Shown piece by piece: positions 660 through 9,307 of a stretch of 10,274 nucleotides of DNA (its first letter is position 1; every line of letters begins with the position of its first letter). Where the stretch lies: NCBI GenBank assembly GCA_017412325.1, contig JAFPYE010000007.1, positions 1 to 10,274 on the forward strand. The letters run 5' to 3'. The notes beneath the pieces were generated by a model. The model made no database searches, was not told the origin of the DNA, and was given only the letters and a program-made list of their open reading frames with translations. The position numbers and the translations under genes were made by a program. The DNA is from Kiritimatiellia bacterium. GTDB lineage: Bacteria; Verrucomicrobiota; Kiritimatiellia; RFP12; UBA1067.

Positions 660-899
660 TCAGGCCTTGCTCAGGAACTCGAAATGCGTGTAGAGCACGT
701 AGACGAGAACGCCCGAAACCGCCAGCGCGACGAGCGCGGCGATGAGGGCGGCCGTGGCCGCGCCCTTGCTGGTCGTCCCGCCCTTCGCACCCTGGACGGG
801 CGCGGTGGGTTCGAGCTTGAAGCGATCGGCGATTGTCGCGCCGCCGGCAGCTGCGGGAGCGGCCGGTGCGGCAGATTTTGCTGGCTTCTTGATTTTCAT
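660..899 (-). CDS. Small single-pass membrane protein, unknown function
   Basis: A 79-residue protein that I do not recognise. Residues 1-20 are Lys/Ala/Pro-rich (MKIKKPAKSAAPAAP), 21-48 are a polar stretch with FKLEPTAP and two Gly/Ser/Thr-rich patches, and about 49-71 form one strongly hydrophobic helix ending in VLVYVLYTHF. The basic N-terminus suggests it faces the cytoplasm, leaving only a few residues on the far side. Coding is supported by a well-placed promoter at 909-938, an ATG exactly 9 bases after the -10, and a sensible soluble-then-membrane layout, although Ala/Pro-rich translation is cheap in GC-rich DNA. It is upstream of the GT2 gene and probably in the same transcript, so a role as an accessory membrane subunit is conceivable but is inference only. 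There is no Shine-Dalgarno, which fits leaderless initiation. Confidence 0.7.
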   Translation of the reverse strand: MKIKKPAKSAAPAAPAAAGGATIADRFKLEPTAPVQGAKGGTTSKGAATAALIAALVALAVSGVLVYVLYTHFEFLSKA

Positions 900-908
900 G
901 GCAACGTA

Positions 909-938
909 ATTATATCATGAAAACGGTTTCGAAAGCAA
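909..938 (-). promoter_or_regulatory. Promoter of the small membrane protein/GT2 unit, predicted leaderless start
   Basis: Reading the minus strand, TTGCTT (938-933) is followed after 18 bases by the extended -10 TGATATAAT, with a perfect TATAAT at 914-909. The transcription start would fall near 902, giving a leader of about 3 bases before ATG 899. The AT-rich hexamer stands out in GC-rich surroundings and sits between the argD stop and the next start codon. No terminator is visible between argD and this promoter. Confidence 0.72.
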
Positions 939-957
939 GATGCCGTTTCGGGGCGAC

Positions 958-2163
958 TTACTCCGCGTCGCCGCCGAACGTGCAGTCAAGCGCGTCGGCG
1001 ATCATGTCGACGGCCTCTTCGAGGTCCTCTTCCTTCAGCACCAGCGGCGGCAGGAAGCGGACGACGTTGCCGCCCGCCGTCAGCGCCAGAAGCCCCTGCG
1101 CCCGCAGCGCCTCGACGACCTCCTTCGGGTCGCCGTCCACCACGAGGCCGAGCATCAGCCCCTTGCCGCGGACTTCCAGCAGCTGGTCGTACTGGTCGAC
1201 GAAGCCCTGCAGCGCCTCGCGGAAGAGGTTGCCCACCTCGGTCGCGCGCTGCAAGAGCCCCTCTTCCTCGATGACGTCGATGACCGCGAGCGCCGCCGCC
1301 GCCGCGACGGGGTTGCCGCCGAAGGTCGACGCGTGCGAACCGGGCGTGAACACGTCCGCGCACTTCGCGTTCGAGACCAGGGCGCCCATCGGGATGCCGT
1401 CGGCGAGCGACTTGGCGAGCGTGAAGAGGTCGGGCTGGACGTCGTAGCCCTGCCACGCGAACCACGTGCCCGTGCGGCCCATGCCCGTCTGCACCTCGTC
1501 GCAGATCATCAGGAGGTTCTTCTCGTCGCAGAGGGCGCGCACGCCCGCCATGAATTCCGCCGTCGCGGGCGTGACGCCGCCCTCGCCCTGCACGGCTTCG
1601 AGCAGGATGGCGACCGTCTTGTCGTTCACCGCCGCCTTGACGCTCTCCAGGTCGTTGAAGTCCGCATAGGCGAAGCCGACCGGCAGCGGGTCGTAGCCCT
1701 CCTGGCACCACGCCTGCGCCGTCGCCGCGAGCGTCGCGAGCGTGCGGCCGTGGAAGCCCTGGCGCATCGTCACGACCTCGTAGCGCCCGCCGTTCGCCGC
1801 GCCCCACTTGCGCGCAAGCTTGATCGCCGCCTCGTTCGCCTCCGCGCCCGAGTTGCAGAAGAACACCTTGCCGCCGAGGCCCGAAAGCGCGACCAGCTTC
1901 GCGGCGAGCTTCGTCGCGGGCTCGTTCGCGTAGAGGTTCGACGCGTGCGTGAGCTTCGCCGCCTGCTGCTGGATCGCCTCGACCACCTTACCGTGGCAGT
2001 GGCCGACATTGTGCACGCCGATGCCCGCCGTGAAGTCGTACAGCGTCAGGCCGTCGGCGTCGCGCACCGTCACGCCCTTGCCGCTCGCCAGGACCACGCT
2101 CGGCGCGTACGTCGGCATCAGGCACTTCCCGTAGGTTTCCAACATGTCGGTTGTCTTGCTCAT
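958..2163 (-). CDS. argD: Acetylornithine aminotransferase (ArgD), class III PLP enzyme
   Basis: A 401-residue cytoplasmic enzyme that transaminates N-acetylglutamate semialdehyde with glutamate to N-acetylornithine in arginine synthesis. Class III aminotransferase landmarks are present: FTAGIGVHNVGH at 44-55, CNSGAEANEAAIKLAR at 103-118 for PLP phosphate binding, FHGRT at 137-141, EAVQGEGG at 189-196, DEVQTGMGRTG at 222-232, the Schiff-base lysine K251 in TLAKSLADGIPMGA, and STFGGNPV at 279-286. Length and order match ArgD; the argB gene directly upstream supports arginine rather than GABA or ornithine transamination. Some ArgD enzymes also serve as succinyl-diaminopimelate aminotransferase in lysine synthesis, which sequence alone cannot separate. 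ATG at 2163 overlaps the argB TGA as ATGA and has a GGAGA Shine-Dalgarno at 2171-2175, seven bases away, so expression should be coupled to argB. The stop is TAA. Confidence 0.95.
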   Translation of the reverse strand: MSKTTDMLETYGKCLMPTYAPSVVLASGKGVTVRDADGLTLYDFTAGIGVHNVGHCHGKVVEAIQQQAAKLTHASNLYANEPATKLAAKLVALSGLGGKVFFCNSGAEANEAAIKLARKWGAANGGRYEVVTMRQGFHGRTLATLAATAQAWCQEGYDPLPVGFAYADFNDLESVKAAVNDKTVAILLEAVQGEGGVTPATAEFMAGVRALCDEKNLLMICDEVQTGMGRTGTWFAWQGYDVQPDLFTLAKSLADGIPMGALVSNAKCADVFTPGSHASTFGGNPVAAAAALAVIDVIEEEGLLQRATEVGNLFREALQGFVDQYDQLLEVRGKGLMLGLVVDGDPKEVVEALRAQGLLALTAGGNVVRFLPPLVLKEEDLEEAVDMIADALDCTFGGDAE

Positions 2164-3020
2164 TCCGTTATCTCCGTTCCCACGCCTTCACGCGTGAATA
2201 TTTCCAAAAGCAGCGAATGCGCCATCCGTCCGTCCACCAGGTGGACCTTCTTGACGCCGGCGCGGATGGCGTCGCAGCAGCTGTCGATCTTCGGGAGCAT
2301 GCCGCCCGAGATGATCCCCTCCGCCTTCAGCTTGGCGACCGACGCGAGCTTCAGCGTCGAGAGGAGCGTCCGGGGGTCGCTTGGGTCGTTCAGCAGCCCC
2401 GGCACGTCCGAGACGAGCGCGAACTTGCGCACCTTCAGCTCCTTGGCGAGCGCCGCCGCCGCGATGTCGGCGTTGACGTTGTAGAGGTGGTGGTCGTCGA
2501 CGCCCGTCGCGAGCGGCGTGACGACGGGGATGATCCCCGCGTCCAGCATCTCGTTCACGGCGCGCGCGTCCACCGCCACGACCTCGCCCACGTAGCCCCG
2601 GTCGGGCGCGGCGATCTTCCGCGCCGCGAACATCCAGTTGCCGTGGAGCGTGCGCGCGTTGACGCCCTTGGCCAGCAGCCGCTTGATGATGTCGGTGTTG
2701 ACGACGTTGTTCAGCGTCTTGCGCACGACCTCCATCGTCGCCTCGTCGGTGACGCGCTGGCCCTCGACGAACTGCGGCTCGTGGCCCGATTCCTTGATCG
2801 CCTTTGAAATCGCCTTGCCGCCGCCGTGCACGATCACCACCTTGATGCCGACCGCCCGCAGGAACGCGATGTCGTCCATCAGCGAATCGAGGTTCGTCTC
2901 GACCTCCATCACGCTGCCGCCGACCTTCACGAGGACGACCGACCCCTTGAAGTCGATGATATACGGCAAGGCCGCGGTCAGGACCGCCGCCTTTGCCATT
3001 GCTGTATCTACCTTCTCCAT
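2160..3020 (-). CDS. argB: Acetylglutamate kinase (ArgB), arginine-inhibited type by its N-terminus
   Basis: A 286-residue amino-acid kinase family enzyme that phosphorylates N-acetylglutamate with ATP, the second step of arginine synthesis in the cytoplasm. Visible motifs: VKVGGSV at 31-37 with K32, HGGGKAIS at 65-72, GQRVTDEATMEVV at 87-99, NVNADIAAAALA at 181-192, LVSDVPGLL at 202-210, GGMLPKI with K244, and VHLVDGR at 259-265. The segment AAVLTAALPYIIDFKG at 11-26 matches the extra N-terminal helix of arginine-sensitive hexameric NAG kinases, which the E. coli-type insensitive dimer lacks. Feedback inhibition by arginine is therefore likely. ATG 3020 is 9 bases after a -10 hexamer; the 12 bases before it are pyrimidine-rich with no Shine-Dalgarno, so translation from a leaderless mRNA is predicted. 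M8 (2999) is an alternative that would still keep the regulatory helix. Confidence 0.95.
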   Translation of the reverse strand: MEKVDTAMAKAAVLTAALPYIIDFKGSVVLVKVGGSVMEVETNLDSLMDDIAFLRAVGIKVVIVHGGGKAISKAIKESGHEPQFVEGQRVTDEATMEVVRKTLNNVVNTDIIKRLLAKGVNARTLHGNWMFAARKIAAPDRGYVGEVVAVDARAVNEMLDAGIIPVVTPLATGVDDHHLYNVNADIAAAALAKELKVRKFALVSDVPGLLNDPSDPRTLLSTLKLASVAKLKAEGIISGGMLPKIDSCCDAIRAGVKKVHLVDGRMAHSLLLEIFTREGVGTEITE

Positions 3021-3029
3021 GAAGGAGAT

Positions 3030-3038
3030 ATTATATCA
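3030..3038 (-). promoter_or_regulatory. Extended -10 promoter of argBD, predicted leaderless start
   Basis: The minus strand reads TGATATAAT, with TATAAT at 3035-3030, seven bases after the stop codon of the GH20 gene. No convincing -35 is present at 16-18 bases, so the TG extension probably carries recognition. The start would be near 3023, leaving a leader of about 3 bases (TTC) before ATG 3020. There is no terminator between the GH20 gene and this site, so read-through from upstream is also possible. Confidence 0.72.
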
Positions 3039-3044
3039 TAAATT

Positions 3045-4547
3045 TCAGTCGATTGGCGCGGCATTGATGCAGAATTCGCGGATCAGCGTCGACCGCACCG
3101 CCGGGATGCGCGCGCGGAACGACGGCCACGACTTGCGCGCCGGCTGCGTCCACAGGCACTCCGCGAGCGCGCTCATGCGCGGCCACATCTTCCACTCGTA
3201 TTCGCTGCCATTCCACGTGTATTCGGTCCAGTTGTTGCCCTGGCCGCCGAGGATGTGGCCCTGCTGCCCCTCGGGGATCCCGCGCGCCGGGTCGAAGCCG
3301 TAGCACCGCTCCAGCGTCGCGGCAAAGCCGTAGTTGATGTATTCGTAGGGATCTTCCTTCAGACCCTGCGGATTGTCGAGGTAGCACGGATCGACCGGCG
3401 TCATGACCGCGTCGTTGCCGCGCGCCGCCGCCTTGATGCCGCCGCCCGGGCCGCGCCACGACATGATGATCGTCTCGGTGCCGGGGTTGCCGTCCAGCAC
3501 CTCGTCCCAGCCGACCGCGCGGCGGCCCTTCCGGGCGAGATACTCGGTGAAGTGGCGCGTCATCCAGCCCTGCAGGCCTTCCTCGCCGTCCAAACCCAGG
3601 TCCTTGATGCGCTGCTGGCACTTCGCGCAGTGCTTCCACATCTTCTTCGGCGCCTCGTCGCCGCCGATGTGGACGATGGGCGACGGGAAGAGGTCGCACA
3701 CTTCGTCCAGCACGTCCTCCAGGAACTTGATCACCTGGTCGTTGCCGCCGCAGAAGATGTGCTCGCTCACGCCCCAGCGCGACCACGGCGCAAACTGCTC
3801 GCCCGTGCAGCCAAGCTCGGGGTAGGCCGCAATCGCCGCAAGCGCGTGGCCCGGCAGCTCGATCTCGGGGATGACGGTGATGTGGCGCGCCGCCGCGTAG
3901 GCGACGATCTCGCGCACGTCGTCCTGCGTGTAGTAGTAGGGCCCGTAGGGAATATGGTTGTTCACCCAGGACGTCTCCTCCCCGTCGTCGCCCGGCTGGA
4001 TGAGGCACTTCGGCTTCGGGCTGCCGGGACGCACCGCTCCCTTCCGCGTCAGCTCGGGATACTTCTTGATCTCGAGGCGCCAGCCCTGGTCCTCGGTCAG
4101 GTGCCAGTGCAGGACGTTCAGCTTGTGGTAGGCCATCGCGTCCAGCGTCTTCATCAGCACTTCCTTGCCGAAGAAGTGGCGGCAGTCGTCGAAGTGGAGC
4201 CCGCGCCACTTGAAGCGCGGCGCGTCCTCGATCTCGACATAGGGGAGGACGAGCCCCCGGCCCGAGCGCGCCGTCAGCTGGCGGACCGTCTGGCCCGCGT
4301 AGAACCGGCCCGCCGCGTCGGACGAGACGATCTTGACGCCGTCGTCCGAGACCGTCAGCCGATAACCTTCCGCCGGAATCGCCGCGTCCGTCTCGAACAC
4401 CGTCAGGGCACCGAGCGCCTTCTGGTCCTGCACGACGAGCGAACCTTCGCGCTCGACCACCTTGTTCGGCAGCGGAATCACGTTGACCGACGCCATCGTT
4501 CCCATCGCCGTCGCGGCCACCGCGCCGGCAATCAGTTCCTTCATCAT
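3045..4547 (-). CDS. GH20 beta-N-acetylhexosaminidase, exported
   Basis: A 500-residue glycoside hydrolase family 20 enzyme removing terminal beta-linked GlcNAc or GalNAc, from chitin fragments, peptidoglycan-derived sugars or host glycans. Residues 1-20 look like a signal peptide (Lys near the start, then AGAVAATAMGTMA), placing it in periplasm or outside. Residues about 22-110 form the GH20 N-terminal domain (IPLPNKV); the TIM barrel starts at KWRGLHFDDCRHF (113-125) and continues with HKLNVLHWHLTEDQGWRLEIKKYPELT. The catalytic pair D297-E298 sits in HIGGDEAPKKMW, with further substrate-pocket elements MSWRG (362-366) and NNWTEY (438-443). Ten cysteines is many, and some may form disulfides. 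Two adjacent ATGs (4547 and 4544) are possible; the purine run GGGGGAAGGAA just upstream fits the second slightly better by spacing. The first overlaps the stop of a 14-codon upstream ORF. No other start is available before an in-frame TAG. Confidence 0.93.
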   Translation of the reverse strand: MMKELIAGAVAATAMGTMASVNVIPLPNKVVEREGSLVVQDQKALGALTVFETDAAIPAEGYRLTVSDDGVKIVSSDAAGRFYAGQTVRQLTARSGRGLVLPYVEIEDAPRFKWRGLHFDDCRHFFGKEVLMKTLDAMAYHKLNVLHWHLTEDQGWRLEIKKYPELTRKGAVRPGSPKPKCLIQPGDDGEETSWVNNHIPYGPYYYTQDDVREIVAYAAARHITVIPEIELPGHALAAIAAYPELGCTGEQFAPWSRWGVSEHIFCGGNDQVIKFLEDVLDEVCDLFPSPIVHIGGDEAPKKMWKHCAKCQQRIKDLGLDGEEGLQGWMTRHFTEYLARKGRRAVGWDEVLDGNPGTETIIMSWRGPGGGIKAAARGNDAVMTPVDPCYLDNPQGLKEDPYEYINYGFAATLERCYGFDPARGIPEGQQGHILGGQGNNWTEYTWNGSEYEWKMWPRMSALAECLWTQPARKSWPSFRARIPAVRSTLIREFCINAAPID

Positions 4548-4588
4548 TTCCTTCCCCCTGTGTTGCGCTCCCCCCGGAGCTTGTTCAT
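4544..4588 (-). CDS. Possible 14-codon leaderless upstream ORF overlapping the GH20 start
   Basis: ATG at 4588 opens MNKLRGERNTGGRK and ends at TGA 4546-4544, which overlaps the first GH20 ATG as ATGA. The ATG lies 9 bases after the -10 hexamer at 4603-4598, the same distance as at argB and the small membrane protein gene, so it would be translated as a leaderless start. The purine-rich run at 4558-4548 serves both as its last codons and as the GH20 ribosome-binding region. The peptide is basic and hydrophilic and resembles nothing I know; a role in coupling or tuning translation is more plausible than a peptide function. It may be chance, since a 14-codon ORF is short. Confidence 0.4.
   Translation of the reverse strand: MNKLRGERNTGGRK
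4567..4580 (-). other. Small hairpin in the GH20 leader
   Basis: The minus strand reads GCTCC-GGGG-GGAGC: a perfect 5-bp GC-rich stem with a 4-base loop, within the transcribed leader and inside the 14-codon upstream ORF. It lies about 20 bases before the GH20 start, so it does not directly cover the Shine-Dalgarno. The stem is short and could be chance in GC-rich DNA. Confidence 0.35.
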
Positions 4589-4597
4589 GAAAGCACT

Positions 4598-4606
4598 ATT
4601 TTACCA
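4598..4606 (-). promoter_or_regulatory. Extended -10 promoter of the GH20 gene
   Basis: The minus strand reads TGGTAAAAT, an extended -10 with hexamer TAAAAT at 4603-4598, in an AT-rich island between the ribosomal-operon terminator and the GH20 gene. A start near 4591 gives a 44-base leader to GH20, or a 3-base leader to the upstream ATG at 4588. No clear -35 is visible. Position and AT-richness support it; the hexamer is weaker than those at argB and the other sites. Confidence 0.58.
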
Positions 4607-4646
4607 TTTTACCGCCCCCGCGCGCAAGTGCCCGCGCCCATTGGAC

Positions 4647-4684
4647 AAAAAAACAAAGCGCGGCTGAATGCCGCGCTTCGTTTT
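4647..4684 (-). terminator. Intrinsic terminator ending the L25-S6-SSB-S18-L9 operon
   Basis: The minus-strand RNA forms AAGCGCGGC-ATTCA-GCCGCGCTT, a perfect 9-bp stem (4678-4670 with 4664-4656) and a 5-base loop. It is followed by TG and seven T residues at 4653-4647. Flanking AAAAC and GTTTT extend the stem to 15 bp with one G-U wobble. It begins about 20 bases after the rplI stop codon. The plus-strand copy also ends in TTTT after a stem with one A-C mismatch, so it might work weakly in both directions. Confidence 0.93.
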
Positions 4685-4703
4685 CGCCGTGTCGGTCCGA
4701 CGC

Positions 4704-5171
4704 TTAGACCGCCGGGGCGGCCTCGTCGAGAATCGTGATCTTGCAGCGGGCGAAGACGCCCTGGCCGAGATCGATCTTCGCCTCGTACTCGCCGACTTCG
4801 CGGAGCGACTCTTCGAGCGAGAACTGGCCGCGCTCGATCTTGACGCCGCGCTGGGCCTCGATCGCCGCGAGCAGGTCCGTCACGCTGACCGCGCCGTAGA
4901 GCTTCTTGCCGTCGGTCGTCGCCGCCGACACCGTGAGCTCGAGCTTGTCGAGCTTGCGGGCGATCTCGAGCGCTTCCTTCTTGAGCTCGGCGGCACGGGC
5001 GGCACGCTCGGCCTCGAGCTTCTTCAGGCGGCGCTTCGCGGCCTCGGTCGCGAGCGCGGCGAGACCCTGCGGGAAGAGGTAGTTGCGGGCGTAGCCGGGG
5101 GCGACCTTGACGATCTCGCCGGCCTTGCCGAGCTTCTTCACGCTGTCCATGAGCATCACTTCGATTGCCAT
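4704..5171 (-). CDS. rplI: 50S ribosomal protein L9
   Basis: A 155-residue large-subunit protein that binds 23S rRNA near the L1 stalk. The N-terminal domain is clear: LGKAGEIVKVAPGYARNYLFPQGLA at about 14-38, the family signature. A long charged Ala/Glu/Lys/Arg helix follows at about 42-75, then the C-terminal domain from KLELTVSAATTDGKKLYGAVS to the end. The length is slightly above the usual 148-150. ATG 5171 is fixed by a strong AAAGGAG Shine-Dalgarno eight bases upstream that lies next to the rpsR stop codon, 16 bases before the start. It is the last gene of the operon; the intrinsic terminator follows. The C-terminal tail DEAAPAV is a small extension. Confidence 0.96.
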   Translation of the reverse strand: MAIEVMLMDSVKKLGKAGEIVKVAPGYARNYLFPQGLAALATEAAKRRLKKLEAERAARAAELKKEALEIARKLDKLELTVSAATTDGKKLYGAVSVTDLLAAIEAQRGVKIERGQFSLEESLREVGEYEAKIDLGQGVFARCKITILDEAAPAV

Positions 5172-5187
5172 GATTCCGCTCCTTTCC

Positions 5188-5418
5188 TTAGGCCATCAGG
5201 CCCATGTTGCGGGCGCGCTTGACGCCCTGGCGGATCTGGCGCTGCTGCGCCGACGTGACGCCGGTGATGCGCGCGGGCAGGATCTTGCCGTAGTCCGTGA
5301 TGTAGTACTTCAGCGTCTCGATGTCGTTGATGTCGATCTGGTCCTTGGGACCGAGCGGCGGACGCTTCCTCGCGGCGAATTCCTCGCCGGCCGAGCTGTT
5401 GGATTTCTTGAAAGCCAT
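5188..5418 (-). CDS. rpsR: 30S ribosomal protein S18 (cysteine-free type)
   Basis: A 76-residue small-subunit protein that pairs with S6 on the 16S platform. The core is unmistakable: IDINDIETLKYYITDYGKILPARITG at about 28-53, then TSAQQRQIRQGVKRARNMGL, matching the S18 C-terminal half. There are no cysteines, so this is the zinc-free form. The N-terminal tail MAFKKSNSSAGEEF is the usual variable, disordered part. ATG 5418 has an AAAGGAAA Shine-Dalgarno at 5433-5426, seven bases away. It is placed between ssb and rplI as in the common rpsF-ssb-rpsR-rplI operon; the gap to ssb is 30 bases. Confidence 0.96.
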   Translation of the reverse strand: MAFKKSNSSAGEEFAARKRPPLGPKDQIDINDIETLKYYITDYGKILPARITGVTSAQQRQIRQGVKRARNMGLMA

Positions 5419-5448
5419 GGTTGGATTTCCTTTTTAAGTTTTTGCGTT

Positions 5449-5868
5449 TTAGAACGGGAGCGCCTCTTCGGTCTCGCTCATCTCCATCGCGCTGGGCGCG
5501 GGGAACTCGGGCCGCTGCCCCTGGGGAGCGAACCGCTCGCCCTTGGGCAGGAACTTGATGGTCGTCGCACGCACCTTCAGCTTCTGGTGGCGCACGCCGT
5601 CCTTCTCCCAGGTGTCCATCTGGAGCCGTCCCTCGACGAGGATCGAACTGCCCTTGGCGAGGTACTGCCCGCAGAGCTCCGCCAGCTTGTCCCACGCATC
5701 GACGTCGATGAAGACGGGGAAGTCCTGCATCTGTCCGTTGCGGTCCCGGCGGCGCTCGTTGATGGCGAGCCCCAGACGCGCGACCTTCATGCCGCTCGCC
5801 CCCGTCATGCGGACGTCGGGGTCGCGGGTGAGGTTGCCCATCAGGATGACTTTGTTGAAGGAGGCCAT
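5449..5868 (-). CDS. ssb: Single-stranded DNA-binding protein, short-linker form
   Basis: A 139-residue SSB that coats single-stranded DNA during replication, repair and recombination and recruits partners through its C-terminal tip. The OB fold covers about 1-110: FNKVILMGNLTRDPDVR at 4-20, VARLGLAINERRRDRNG, then FVDVDAWDKLAELCGQYLAKG-like text (here PVFIDVDAWDKLAELCGQYL) and ILVEGRLQMDTWEKDGVRH. The tip ETEEALPF is a variant of the canonical acidic DDDIPF. The linker between OB fold and tip is only about 25 residues and lacks the long Gly/Gln-rich region of E. coli SSB (178 residues). ATG 5868 has no recognisable Shine-Dalgarno in the 27-base gap after rpsF, unlike its neighbours; this could lower its translation relative to S6 and S18, which is inference. 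Confidence 0.96.
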   Translation of the reverse strand: MASFNKVILMGNLTRDPDVRMTGASGMKVARLGLAINERRRDRNGQMQDFPVFIDVDAWDKLAELCGQYLAKGSSILVEGRLQMDTWEKDGVRHQKLKVRATTIKFLPKGERFAPQGQRPEFPAPSAMEMSETEEALPF

Positions 5869-5895
5869 GAGATGTGTCCCGTTGGTCGTGTCGTC

Positions 5896-6303
5896 TTAGG
5901 CCTCGGTCGGCGTCTCGCCGGCGGCGACGGCTTCAGCGGCCTGCTGCTGCGCGGCGGCCTTGCGGGAGGCGCGATCGGCGCGGGCCGTGCGCTCGGCGGC
6001 GATCTTCGCCTCGCGGCGCTCGTCGACGGCGAGGATCTGCACGCGGAACACCTCTTCGACGAGGCGGTAGCGCTTGATCAGCTCCTCGATGCGGTCGGCG
6101 GGAAGCTCCATGCGGACCTTCACGTAGACGCCCGATTCCTTCTTGGACAGCGCACGCGCGAAGGTGCGCTTGCCGAGCGATTCGGTCGACAGCACCGTGC
6201 CGCCGATGCGCGTCACTTCCGCGAGCGCCTTTTCGAGGTTCGCGTTGAGGACGTCGTCCTTGGTGACGCCGACGAAGATATAGATTGCGTCGTACTTCTT
6301 CAT
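5896..6303 (-). CDS. rpsF: 30S ribosomal protein S6
   Basis: A 135-residue small-subunit protein that forms a heterodimer with S18. The S6 ferredoxin-like fold occupies about 1-95: YDAIYIFVGVTKDDVLNANLE-type N-terminus, GGTVLSTESLGKRTFA (about 34-49) and the beta strand VYVKVRMELPADRIEELIKRYRLVEEVFR. Residues about 97-135 are an Ala/Glu/Arg-rich tail, typical of variable S6 C-termini. The start ATG 6303 shares one base with the L25 stop (TAATG) and has a full AAGGAGG Shine-Dalgarno at 6317-6311 inside the L25 gene, seven bases away, so strong coupled translation is expected. Autoregulation by an S6:S18 complex is known in other bacteria; I see no clear binding motif here. Confidence 0.95.
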   Translation of the reverse strand: MKKYDAIYIFVGVTKDDVLNANLEKALAEVTRIGGTVLSTESLGKRTFARALSKKESGVYVKVRMELPADRIEELIKRYRLVEEVFRVQILAVDERREAKIAAERTARADRASRKAAAQQQAAEAVAAGETPTEA

Positions 6304-6962
6304 TATTTGGCCTCCTTCTTCGCAGCAGCGGCGTCTTCCTTGCCCTTCTTGATCACTTCAGGCGTCTTCTCCGCGGCCGCCGCGCCCGCCGTCGCCGGCG
6401 CGTCTTCCGGCGCCTTGACGACCGCAACCGGAATCTCCGGACGCGTGGCGATCGTCTGCTTGTCGCCGAGCTGCAGGTCGCGCACGAAGAGCGTCTCGTC
6501 GACGTTGAGGTTGGTGACGTCGATCTCGAACTTCTCCGCGATGTCCGTCGGCAGGCAGAGCACGTCGATCGTGCGCAGCGTCTGTTCCAGCACGCCGCCG
6601 CCCAGCTTCACGCCGACCGCCTCGCCCACGAGGTAGAGCGGCACCGTGACGCGCACCTTCTCGGTGAGCGACACCTCGCTGAAGTCCACGTGGATGGGCG
6701 TGCCCGCGAGCACGTCGTTCTGCATCTCGCGCATGAGCGCGGGGACTTCCTTGCCGTCCATGTCCAGCGTGACCAGGAGCTGCTTGCTCGCATGGCCGCG
6801 CATCGCCATCATGAAGTCGTGCGCCGGGAGCTTGATCAGCTCCGTGCCGCCCTTCTTCATCTTCATCACGCTGCCGGGGATCATGCCCGACTTGCGCAAA
6901 CGGCGAACCGCTCCCGTACCCTGTTCGGTGCGGGGCTCCGCCTTGATTTTGATCTGATCCAT
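6303..6962 (-). CDS. rplY: 50S ribosomal protein L25, long CTC/TL5 form
   Basis: A 219-residue L25 of the CTC type, which binds 5S rRNA in the large subunit. The N-terminal 5S-binding domain (about 1-90) starts IKIKAEPRTEQGTGAVRRLR and includes TLDMDGKEVPALMREMQNDVLAGTPIHVDF-type text; the C-terminal TL5 domain (about 95-180) includes VPLYLVGEAVGVKLGGGVLEQ and LRTIDVLCLPTDIAEKFEIDVTNL. A Lys/Ala-rich tail ends the protein. The usual IPGVVYG segment is replaced by IPGSVMKMKKGG, an odd change at a conserved spot. ATG 6962 is chosen because MDQIKIKAEPR matches family N-termini; an upstream TTG at 7043 would include the promoter. There is no strong Shine-Dalgarno, only an A-rich stretch. In many bacteria ctc and pth precede rpsF; pth is absent here. 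Confidence 0.92.
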   Translation of the reverse strand: MDQIKIKAEPRTEQGTGAVRRLRKSGMIPGSVMKMKKGGTELIKLPAHDFMMAMRGHASKQLLVTLDMDGKEVPALMREMQNDVLAGTPIHVDFSEVSLTEKVRVTVPLYLVGEAVGVKLGGGVLEQTLRTIDVLCLPTDIAEKFEIDVTNLNVDETLFVRDLQLGDKQTIATRPEIPVAVVKAPEDAPATAGAAAAEKTPEVIKKGKEDAAAAKKEAK

Positions 6963-7027
6963 CTTGTTCTTTCTTGTTTTTGCTTTCGCATACTCTCGCG
7001 CACGCGCGCTACACTCTGCGACAAACG
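6963..7027 (-). promoter_or_regulatory. Untranslated leader of the ribosomal operon, possible fold
   Basis: About 65 bases lie between the predicted start (near 7027) and the L25 ATG. On the minus strand TCGCA (7021-7017) can pair with TGCGA (6990-6986), enclosing CGCG-CGTG-CGCG (7008-6997). The last 20 bases before the ATG are A-rich and unstructured. Leaders of ribosomal operons are often sites of feedback by a product, but I do not recognise a known ribosomal-protein binding motif and the inner stem is only 4 bp. Confidence 0.3.
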
Positions 7028-7033
7028 GGCGAA

Positions 7034-7063
7034 AGTATATCAAAAACGCCGCCCGCCGCGCAA
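7034..7063 (-). promoter_or_regulatory. Promoter of the ribosomal-protein/SSB operon
   Basis: TTGCGC at 7063-7058 is followed after 18 bases by an extended -10 TGATATACT with hexamer TATACT at 7039-7034. The -35 and spacing resemble those of the promoter at 909-938. The start would be near 7027, giving a conventional leader of about 65 bases, unlike the other promoters of this class in the window. It is located between the response regulator stop and L25, with no strong terminator before it. Confidence 0.72.
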
Positions 7064-7083
7064 GAGCGAATATTTATGCGGGG

Positions 7084-7767
7084 TTACTTGACGAGCTTGT
7101 AGCCCGCTGCGCGCTGGCAGACGATCAGCTCGCCCGCCGCGCCCAGCTTGCGGCGCAGGTTCCAGACGTGCACGTAGACCGTGTTGTCGTCGCACGCGTA
7201 CCCTTCGCCCCGGATGTGGTCGAGGATCTCCTCGGACGAAAACACCCGCCCGCGCTCGCCGTCCAGGAGCCGCAGGATGTCGAGCTCCGTGCGCGTCAGC
7301 ACGCGGTTGCGCCGCGACCCGTCCCGGACCGTCAGCTCGCAGCAGTCGACGACCGCGCGCCCGACCTGGATCGTCACCTCCGGCTTGAGCCCGCGCCGGA
7401 ACGCCGCCAGCCGCGCCACCGCGCGCGCCACCCGCGCCACCCGCACGGAATCGGGGTCCGTCTTCAGGACATAGTCGTCGCCGCCCAGCTCCAGCCCGCG
7501 CACGTGGTCGTCCGCGCCGTCCAGCTGCGTGTTGAAGACGATGGGCGTCAGCGCGTCGATCGCGCGCATCTGGCGGCACGCCGTAAAGCCGTTCTGCCCC
7601 GGCAGCATCACGTCCAGCAGCACCACGTCGGGCCGCCGCTCGCGGAACTTCGCGACGCCCTCCTCCGCCGTCCGCGCGAGCCGCACCGTGTAGCCCTCGC
7701 CCGCGAACAGCTTGGCGTAGGCGGTGCGGAAGATGCGTTCGTCCTCGACGATCAGGATGTCGGCCAT
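7084..7767 (-). CDS. OmpR/PhoB-family response regulator, orphan in this window
   Basis: A 227-residue two-component transcription regulator. The receiver domain (1-about 118) has the acidic pair E8-D9, phosphoacceptor D52 in LLDVMLPG, switch residue T80 in PIVFNTQ, and K102 in DDYVLKTD. The proline that normally follows this lysine is replaced by threonine, and the T-A pair by T-Q, so the phosphorylation face is slightly unusual. The C-terminal winged-helix domain (about 135-227) contains LTRTELDILRLL, FSSEEILDHI, DDNTVYVHVWNLRRKLG and AAGYKLVK, as in PhoB. The DNA target is unknown. ATG 7767 has a GAGGGGG ribosome site six bases upstream that includes the TGA of the preceding HAD-like gene, so the two genes are probably cotranscribed and coupled. 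No histidine kinase gene is nearby. Confidence 0.93.
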   Translation of the reverse strand: MADILIVEDERIFRTAYAKLFAGEGYTVRLARTAEEGVAKFRERRPDVVLLDVMLPGQNGFTACRQMRAIDALTPIVFNTQLDGADDHVRGLELGGDDYVLKTDPDSVRVARVARAVARLAAFRRGLKPEVTIQVGRAVVDCCELTVRDGSRRNRVLTRTELDILRLLDGERGRVFSSEEILDHIRGEGYACDDNTVYVHVWNLRRKLGAAGELIVCQRAAGYKLVK

Positions 7768-7778
7768 CGCGCGCCCCC

Positions 7779-8723
7779 TCAGAATCCCGGCAGGTTCATC
7801 TGGCCCGAGACGCAGACCTTGCGCCCCTTCGTGAGCGTGCGGTCGGACGTGTCGTAGACGACGAACTTGATGCCCTCGAACCGCCGCGACAGCTCCGCCT
7901 TGATGTAGTTCGAGACGCTGCGCACGTTCCCCTTGTCGTCGTCGGAGAACCCGATCGCCACGGAGCGGTCCAGCCCGCCCGTGCGCTGGAGCGTGTGGAA
8001 GACGTGCTCGACGAAATCGCGGATCGCGAACTCCTTGGCGAGCTCCGGACGCGCGGCGGTCGTGGCCGTCGCAAGCTTCTCCTTGTAGATCGGGTCGTTC
8101 GCCATGCGCGCCTTGAAGCCGTCCCAGGTGACCGCCGAATAGCGGCACATCCCGAGGTAGTAGTCGAGCTCCTCCGCGTCGGTGCCGAACGTCTCCACCT
8201 TGTCCAGCCACTTGCGGTAGCCGCGCAGGTTCGACATCATCATCTCGCGCTCGAGCGGCGTGAGCGCGTTCTCGATGAAGAGCCGCACCGCCTTTTCGAT
8301 CGTCTCGGGCGCGTGGCCGCGCGCGGTGACGATGGCGAAGATGCGCCCTTCGACGAGCGTCTTCTTGAAGGTGTTGTAGCTGGGGCTCGGCTTCTCGATC
8401 CCCGCCGCCACGCGCTCGAGCGCGGCGAGCGTGTCCTCGATGAAGTGGTTCGGCTCCCCGCTCTGCGCAGGATCGGCGAAGCAGCGGAACGCCTCTTCCC
8501 AGCCGCCGCACGCGGGGGCGCGGTAGTGCTCGGTGTCGGCGCGCACGAGCGCGAAGGTCGAGGTCGACACCTCCACCGGCTTCCACGGCGACGCGGGCGT
8601 TTCGCGGTGCTCCAGCCGGATCTTCGTCGGCATGTGCAGGATGTTGTCGTCCCAGTCGAAGATGTAGTACTTGAAGTCGCGGTCGGCGACCTCTTCGTTC
8701 ACGTATGGGATCGGCTTCGTCAT
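7779..8723 (-). CDS. HAD-like protein of unknown substrate
   Basis: A 314-residue protein with haloacid-dehalogenase superfamily features. Motif I is YYIFDWDDNILH at 19-30, with D23 and D25 as nucleophile and general acid; it is followed by D26-N27 where DxDxT or DxDxV is usual. Motif II is AIVTARGH at 130-137 with T133; a motif IV-like VAIGFSDDDKGN lies at 255-266. The long stretch between motifs I and II and again between II and IV suggests cap insertions. HAD members are mostly phosphatases; the substrate cannot be told, and polynucleotide or sugar phosphates are equally possible. ATG 8723 is preferred because the -10 hexamer (8737-8732) sits 8 bases before it. A second ATG at 8741 would add MIYYPA and overlap the queH stop as ATGA. 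The response regulator gene follows 11 bases after the stop. Confidence 0.82.
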   Translation of the reverse strand: MTKPIPYVNEEVADRDFKYYIFDWDDNILHMPTKIRLEHRETPASPWKPVEVSTSTFALVRADTEHYRAPACGGWEEAFRCFADPAQSGEPNHFIEDTLAALERVAAGIEKPSPSYNTFKKTLVEGRIFAIVTARGHAPETIEKAVRLFIENALTPLEREMMMSNLRGYRKWLDKVETFGTDAEELDYYLGMCRYSAVTWDGFKARMANDPIYKEKLATATTAARPELAKEFAIRDFVEHVFHTLQRTGGLDRSVAIGFSDDDKGNVRSVSNYIKAELSRRFEGIKFVVYDTSDRTLTKGRKVCVSGQMNLPGF

Positions 8724-8731
8724 CGCCGGAT

Positions 8732-8740
8732 AGTATATCA
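8732..8740 (-). promoter_or_regulatory. Extended -10 promoter embedded in the end of queH, predicted leaderless HAD start
   Basis: The minus strand reads TGATATACT, hexamer TATACT at 8737-8732, whose TGA is the queH stop codon. The start would fall near 8725, leaving about 2 bases before ATG 8723. No -35 matching TTGACA is seen at 16-18 bases. Its close identity to the sites at argB, the ribosomal operon and the small membrane protein gene supports function. Confidence 0.65.
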
Positions 8741-9307
8741 TATCTCGCCGCGCGGCTTGCGGGGCTTCGGCGGCTTGACCGAGAACTCGCAGCCGCAGAA
8801 CTTCTGGCGGTAGAGCCCCAGCTCCGCGCTGCGGCGCATCGACTTCAGGAAGCCGTCGTGCTTCTTGAAATTCTCCTCCAGGAACTTCGGCGCGCCCGGC
8901 TCGTAGGGCAGGAGCGCCGCCTCGCGGAAGATGACCTGCGTGTCCTTGTGCGGCGAGACGGTCAGCGTCGTCGTGAACGCCCCGATGCCCATCTCCTTCG
9001 CGAACGCCATCGTCTTGCCGAGGTTGTAGCGGAAGCACTTCGCGCACCGTTCGCCGCGCTCGGGCTCCGTCTCCAGCCCCGCCGCGACTTCGCGCCGCCA
9101 TTCCGCGTGGTCGTACTTGAGCGCGACGAGCTTCACCCCCTCCGCGTCCGCCACCTTCTGCGCCTCCGCGAGCCGCCGCAGGAACTCCGCGTGCGTGGCG
9201 ATGTTGGAATTCGCGAAGAACATCACGACCTCGTACCCGAGCTCCTTCAGTCGCGGCACGCACGACGAAGAGCACGGCCCGCAGCAGGTATGGAGCGCGA
9301 CGGTCAT
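8738..9307 (-). CDS. queH: Epoxyqueuosine reductase QueH
   Basis: A 189-residue cytoplasmic enzyme catalysing the last step of queuosine synthesis, reduction of epoxyqueuosine to queuosine in the anticodon of GUN-reading tRNAs. It replaces the unrelated QueG in many bacteria. The QueH (former DUF208) hallmarks are visible: LHTCCGPCSSSC at 5-16, FFANSNI at 30-36, ERCAKCFRYNLGKT at 86-99, TTTLTVSPHKD at 112-122, and LYRQKFCGCEFS at 165-176. The cysteines C8, C9, C88, C91, C171 and C173 match the conserved set used for iron-sulfur and metal binding. Length is typical. ATG 9307 follows the nitroreductase stop by 15 bases with only a weak CCGGA upstream, so it is probably read as part of that transcript. 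Its stop codon lies within the promoter of the next gene. Confidence 0.95.
   Translation of the reverse strand: MTVALHTCCGPCSSSCVPRLKELGYEVVMFFANSNIATHAEFLRRLAEAQKVADAEGVKLVALKYDHAEWRREVAAGLETEPERGERCAKCFRYNLGKTMAFAKEMGIGAFTTTLTVSPHKDTQVIFREAALLPYEPGAPKFLEENFKKHDGFLKSMRRSAELGLYRQKFCGCEFSVKPPKPRKPRGEI

Follow-up and report, generated by a model that had tools for sequence, protein, structure and literature searches.

The question raised by the 10,274-nucleotide window analyzed here (the whole of positions 1 to 10,274 of contig JAFPYE010000007.1, from a Kiritimatiellia bacterium) is whether a promoter element that recurs directly ahead of start codons gives rise to leaderless messages. Five such elements lie on the minus strand of the window, four of them reading TGATATAMT (M, A or C), an extended −10 hexamer, against none expected from 200 dinucleotide shuffles. 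An earlier note on this DNA had listed the five positions and proposed that they mark leaderless starts, such initiation being routine at first genes. Direct reading agrees with the positions, and at four of the five sites an ATG follows 8–9 bases past the hexamer (gaps of 9, 9, 9 and 8 bases for the elements beginning at 917, 3038, 4606 and 8740), with none near 7042. On the evidence presented below, we hold with high confidence that TGATATAMT represents the core of the housekeeping promoter and that part of the first genes would be translated from leaderless messages, alongside Shine-Dalgarno (SD) initiation.

The metagenome-assembled genome (MAG) carrying the window comprises 878,340 bases in 190 contigs and is ~60% complete. 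We place it in the Kiritimatiellae through its nearest named argB relatives, which belong to Kiritimatiellae, Verrucomicrobia or unnamed bacterial MAGs and in several cases stem from the ruminant stomach. TGATATAMT occurs at 129 sites in this MAG, compared to 0 for the reversed pattern, and an ATG lies 6–11 bases past the motif 58 times versus 10 times at 17–22 bases (binomial p 1e-9). The sharp peak at 8–9 bases predicted earlier is thus present in a broader form (6–11 bases, commonest 7). Further counts were made in a sample of 295,223 bases, in which 83 of the 129 motif copies and 35 of the 58 ATGs at short gap are located. SD-like words, defined as AGGA, GGAG or GAGG between the promoter and the nearest open ATG, were found in a recount by site at 0/34 sites with a gap of 5–12 bases versus 24/32 with a gap of 18–60. 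Counted as spacer strings rather than sites, the short-gap class had none in 55; the motif listing behind these strings omits some matches with a nearer ATG (54 instead of 58 at gap 6–11), and at least 2 of the 19 strings with an SD word belong to sites where an ATG stands at short gap as well.

The start codons themselves point in the same direction. All 33 sample starts at gap 5–11, counted over open reading frames (ORFs) that reach 50 codons or leave the contig, are ATG, with no GTG or TTG, whereas GTG or TTG accounts for 33/251 called starts overall (Fisher p 0.02). A pyrimidine directly precedes the ATG in 43/55 short-gap strings compared to 14/30 with longer gaps. RNA polymerase favours a purine after a pyrimidine as its start, and the message may therefore often begin at the A of the AUG. 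If the start is taken as the first purine at positions 7–10 past the hexamer, the leader would be 0 bases in 31/55 strings and 1–4 in the others. Many leaders may be of 0 bases and not of the 2–3 proposed earlier.

The alternative that survives best, improbable as we consider it, is that the motif is a true promoter, that translation begins from an SD-led ATG further on and that the near ATG is there by chance. This description holds at 4606, and argB has a second in-frame ATG (2999) behind AAGG that was picked by the gene caller. The excess of ATGs at short spacing argues against it, as does the conservation of argB in 15 named loci from 14 MAGs (L021 and L022 belong to the same MAG; a Rhodoferax match at 29% identity was dropped), where the first ATG is kept in 15/15 and the second in 12. 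The same 15 loci all keep TGNTA(T/A)AMT with an ATG 8–13 bases on, while the spacer and upstream bases have changed. Additionally, five of ten leaderless proteins scanned enter their first Pfam match at residues 4–6, leaving hardly any room for a later start; in the other five the match begins at residues 14–28. Among the proteins read as leaderless are adenylate kinase, a class-V aminotransferase, RbfA, an M50 protease, DNA polymerase III alpha, ScpA and a UDP-sugar dehydrogenase.

Across 30 argB loci of the order, the strict-pattern element is present in 10, all among the 13 nearest (L206–L218); two of the remaining three (L216 and L218) carry one-base variants at gap 9, and L210 is without the element. 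Of the 17 more distant loci, 15 have argB behind an ORF that ends in NA(E/D)YTT and is probably argJ. Ahead of adk, the element with an ATG 7–11 bases on is present in 9 of the 12 nearest loci, counting that of the present MAG; AAGGAG and AAAGGA stand in its place in L109 and L117, and AAGGGAAA in L111. This variation suggests that close relatives may differ in whether one and the same gene is leaderless or has an SD.

The promoter nature of the motif is indicated by its form and its distribution. TATAMT occurs 100 times in the sample, 89 times as TGNTATAMT and 83 times as TGATATAMT, and the fuller form, which extends beyond the stretch noted earlier, is RRWTD-TGATATAMT-AT, with C nearly absent from the four bases before TG and T at −2 in 75/83 sites. 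A TTG at −35 distance was seen at 20/83. Gram-positive bacteria have TRTG extended −10 promoters, which the present class resembles in its T-R-T-G ahead of the hexamer and its weak or absent −35; to our knowledge, those promoters have no tie to leaderless starts. As TGATATACT, the motif also lies 17–33 bases upstream of 5/8 tRNA genes in the sample, which identifies it as a promoter. We regard the class as real and as one of the extended −10 sigma70-type promoters, a type marked by TGN-TATAAT and also serving stable RNA genes. Reading the AT-rich element as a translation signal (S1 or Kozak-like), as such bias before starts has been read in other phyla (PMC5397173, in the portion accessible), is very unlikely given these tRNA genes and its presence, at variable longer distance, before SD-led genes. 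As a separate observation, two divergent gene pairs (L016 4455–4501 and L045 294–345) have both genes leaderless-looking, with two TGATATAMT copies 7 and 17 bases apart and ATGs 45 and 50 bases apart.

The position of genes within operons provides the next line of evidence. Among 246 genes with located starts, to which this count and the next comparison are confined, TANNNT stands at gap 5–11 ahead of 47, and 39 of these are TATAMT. The element precedes 31/97 first genes and 5/113 internal genes, a comparison that also drops 27 genes with a gap of 25–59 and nine with no upstream neighbour seen, and ~0.5% of gene-interior ATGs (Fisher p 5e-8 to 9e-9 on the 246-gene counts). That longer transcripts are processed into leaderless messages, with no initiation at the ATG, is hardly credible: several of these genes do lie close behind a same-strand gene (argB, 7 bases past the GH20 stop), yet processing has no need of a −10 at fixed distance, and divergent first genes have TANNNT at this distance more often (15/32) than internal genes (5/113). 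The earlier expectation of routine leaderless initiation at first genes is thus supported by spacing, lack of SD words, operon-head placement and conservation at argB and adk.

SD initiation is also in use, as indicated by the SD words ahead of genes and the intact 16S tail. SD words precede 56% of internal genes, 56% of first genes and 20% of gene-interior ATGs, and the 16S anti-SD tail TGGATCACCTCCTT is present in the MAG. The SD words cited in the earlier note for rpsF, rplI, rpsR and argD are all in the sequence. The genome does not resemble one that has given up the SD mechanism, in which the 16S tail would lack CCUCC and SD-led genes would be few. It does display both features of TA-led genes as surveyed by Zheng et al. 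2011 (PMC3160421), namely a −10 hexamer ~10 bp before the start above background and no SD word with it.

Several observations weigh against leaderless initiation or its extent. The gap is spread over 6–11 bases with no single value. The sample fractions (47/246 and 31/97) are too high, as the motif guided the choice of most contigs; scaled for this enrichment, leaderless genes would make up about 11% of all genes and about 18% of first genes genome-wide. The gene caller was home-made and misplaced some starts (argB at 2999, the 314-residue gene at 8741). In folding and early-codon GC, leaderless genes resemble SD-led genes with the same promoter. The argB element is missing from the 17 more distant of the 30 order loci, and for the 314-residue gene 28/29 other loci (the best of 55 matching genomes) have no −10 at gap 5–13; one of the loci for this gene, L089, has TATAAT 10 bases ahead of an in-frame ATG. 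Finally, G084, a genome of the same family, has TANNNT at 4/53 first genes at gap 5–11 and six at 12–18, with no clear peak. Low early-codon GC was itself considered as a mark of leaderless genes (0.485 versus 0.541 in other called ATG genes, p 0.007) and rejected, since SD-led genes of the same promoter are alike (0.506).

Under the leaderless mechanism that we favour, RNA polymerase would start ~7–10 bases past the hexamer of the extended −10, mostly without a recognizable −35. At a little under half of the promoters, the start base would be the A of the first ATG or a position no more than about four bases upstream, giving a leader of 0–4 bases without an SD, and a ribosome loaded with initiator tRNA would bind the 5′ AUG directly, as work in other bacteria suggests. 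Operon-internal genes and those with longer leaders would rely on ordinary SD initiation through the intact anti-SD. The motif, its spacing, the lack of SD words, AUG-only starts, the operon-head place and conservation in near relatives can be read directly; the exact start of transcription and the ribosome step are inferred.

Leaderless initiation is very likely routine in the genus and in parts of the order. Within the genus, ATGs at gap 6–11 outnumber those at 17–22 in 39/39 genomes searched (1776 versus 504; 35 genomes at p<0.01). The wider survey used TATAMT only, with ATGs at gap 6–10 compared to 16–20 at q<0.01, and would miss lineages with another −10. In the order it gave 1666 versus 778 in 16 genomes (11 significant), in the rest of the class 4457 versus 4291 in 48 (one significant, G121) and in the rest of the phylum 14671 versus 15011 in 130 (two, G051 and G184). 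The whole-genome TATAMT counts of G084 are 201 versus 59. G026, of the same order, has TANNNT at 9/64 first genes at gap 5–11, with four at 12–18 and 13 at 19–25. A possible second leaderless lineage within the class is represented by G121, a 3.1-Mb chromosome in one contig with 458 versus 234 TATAMT; its called first genes gave no signal, with a caller tuned to GC-rich genomes and a sample at 44.5% GC. In G051, of the same phylum, first genes lack a TATAMT peak and show a modest TANNNT excess (17/69 at gap 5–11, eight at 12–18). SD words precede 14% of the first genes of G051 (L164–L173), below the 23% at gene-interior ATGs, and this is possibly an SD-poor lineage like Akkermansia, which has been called SD-scarce (PMC10783764, as far as accessible).

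The mechanism, though uncommon, is known elsewhere; what is new is the lineage. In Deinococcus-Thermus, the accessible text of Zhong et al. 2025 (PMC12340547) describes a −10 ~6–7 bp before the start codon of leaderless genes without an SD, with the element TANNNT, most often TACACT, a dispensable −35 and reporter and RNA support. The present system is similar in having a −10 just before the start, no SD, a dispensable −35 and classical SD genes alongside. It differs in that the element is TGATATAMT with hardly any variation, although the sample has 65% GC, and in being known from sequence alone. The survey of Zheng et al. 2011, in the part available, read genes with a TA-like signal ~10 bp before the start as leaderless and found TAnnnT in high-GC groups, compared to 39/47 TATAMT here; Verrucomicrobia, Planctomycetes and Chlamydiae are not named in its group list, in which the row "Other Bacteria" is not spelled out (PMC3160421). 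Of two other sources, likewise accessible in part, a review puts the leaderless share of genes at 20–25% for mycobacteria and Streptomyces and at ~60% for Deinococcus deserti (PMC9031893), and the second associates a leaderless or S1-type bias with Planctomycetes, which belong to the same superphylum (PMC5397173). Kiritimatiellae appear only in an anti-SD table in the available part of PMC10783764. A literature search judged on titles and abstract openings, with preprints and most subscription papers outside it, found no report of leaderless genes in Kiritimatiellae.

A lineage of the Verrucomicrobiota would thereby join the few bacterial groups with a sizeable leaderless-looking share of first genes, which bears on the view of leaderless starts as relics of slow-evolving or extremophile lineages. 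We tentatively suggest, as a conjecture that could well prove wrong, that one Kiritimatiellae order acquired leaderless initiation as a derived trait and did not keep it as an ancestral relic, and that a gene leaving its operon (argB, adk) gains a TGNTATAMT promoter with the A of the AUG first, the near-invariant extended −10 enabling this in a GC-rich genome. Depending on the relative, argB and adk appear either leaderless or placed inside an operon or behind an SD, and the switch of mode is thus directly testable. In practical terms, gene finders that expect an SD may misplace starts in these MAG-only genomes, and TGATATAMT offers a handle for correction.

The five elements of the window can be assessed individually on this basis (Table 1). 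The proposal of leaderless starts fares well at 917 and 3038, which are good cases, the latter with strong comparative support. At 8740, the full promoter is present and the protein start may be 8723 (leaderless) or 8741 (overlapping queH). At 7042, the reading is of a leadered gene, as it is for the GH20 gene at 4606. The reading of 4606 as a leaderless start of a 14-codon leader peptide was considered and rejected, since the nearest relative keeps the −10 and has ATT in place of the ATG. Among 15 GH20 loci examined, the distant relative L146 alone has TGGTATAAT 7 bases ahead of the GH20 ATG.

Table 1. Promoter elements and associated reading frames in the window.
Feature	Positions	Strand	Remarks
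79-residue Pro/Ala-rich protein, hydrophobic C-terminal stretch	660..899	−	Start ATG 899, read as leaderless
Extended −10 TGATATAAT	909..917	−	ATG 9 bases past hexamer
argB	2160..3020	−	Start ATG 3020, read as leaderless
Extended −10 TGATATAAT, just past GH20 stop	3030..3038	−	ATG 9 bases past hexamer
GH20 glycosidase	3045..4547	−	Leader ~44 bases, AGGGGGAAGGAA ahead of ATG
14-codon ORF, starting 9 bases past TGGTAAAAT	4544..4588	−	Start not conserved
−10 TGGTAAAAT of the GH20 gene	4598..4606	−	Kept in nearest relative L138
Extended −10 TGATATACT of bL25 and genes after it	7034..7042	−	Leader ~65 bases
314-residue protein	7779..8723	−	Start 8723 (leaderless) or in-frame 8741 (ATGA overlap with queH)
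Extended −10 TGATATACT	8732..8740	−	TGA is the queH stop codon; ATG 8 bases past hexamer

The minus-strand genes of the window include argD, argB, the GH20 glycosidase, rplI, ssb, bL25, a response regulator, the 314-residue protein and queH. The 79-residue protein matched no Pfam family and had no homologue in the loci searched. The 314-residue protein also matched no Pfam family and has matches in 55/59 genomes of the order; the DWDD stretch near its N terminus recalls HAD-type hydrolases. Finally, argD follows argB, overlapping it by ATGA and having an SD word of its own, and the last ~ten codons of argB are near-frozen at synonymous sites (commonest-codon share 0.98 in the best ten-codon window, median 0.70, in the own genome and 14 relatives). 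The strict DNA pattern of this end was found in 2/146 genomes of the class (the own and one of its genus). The segment (2160–2204, minus strand) may form a 6-bp hairpin ahead of the argD GGAG (z −2.7, −2.4 and −0.8 in three sequences) and is perhaps a cis element for argD.

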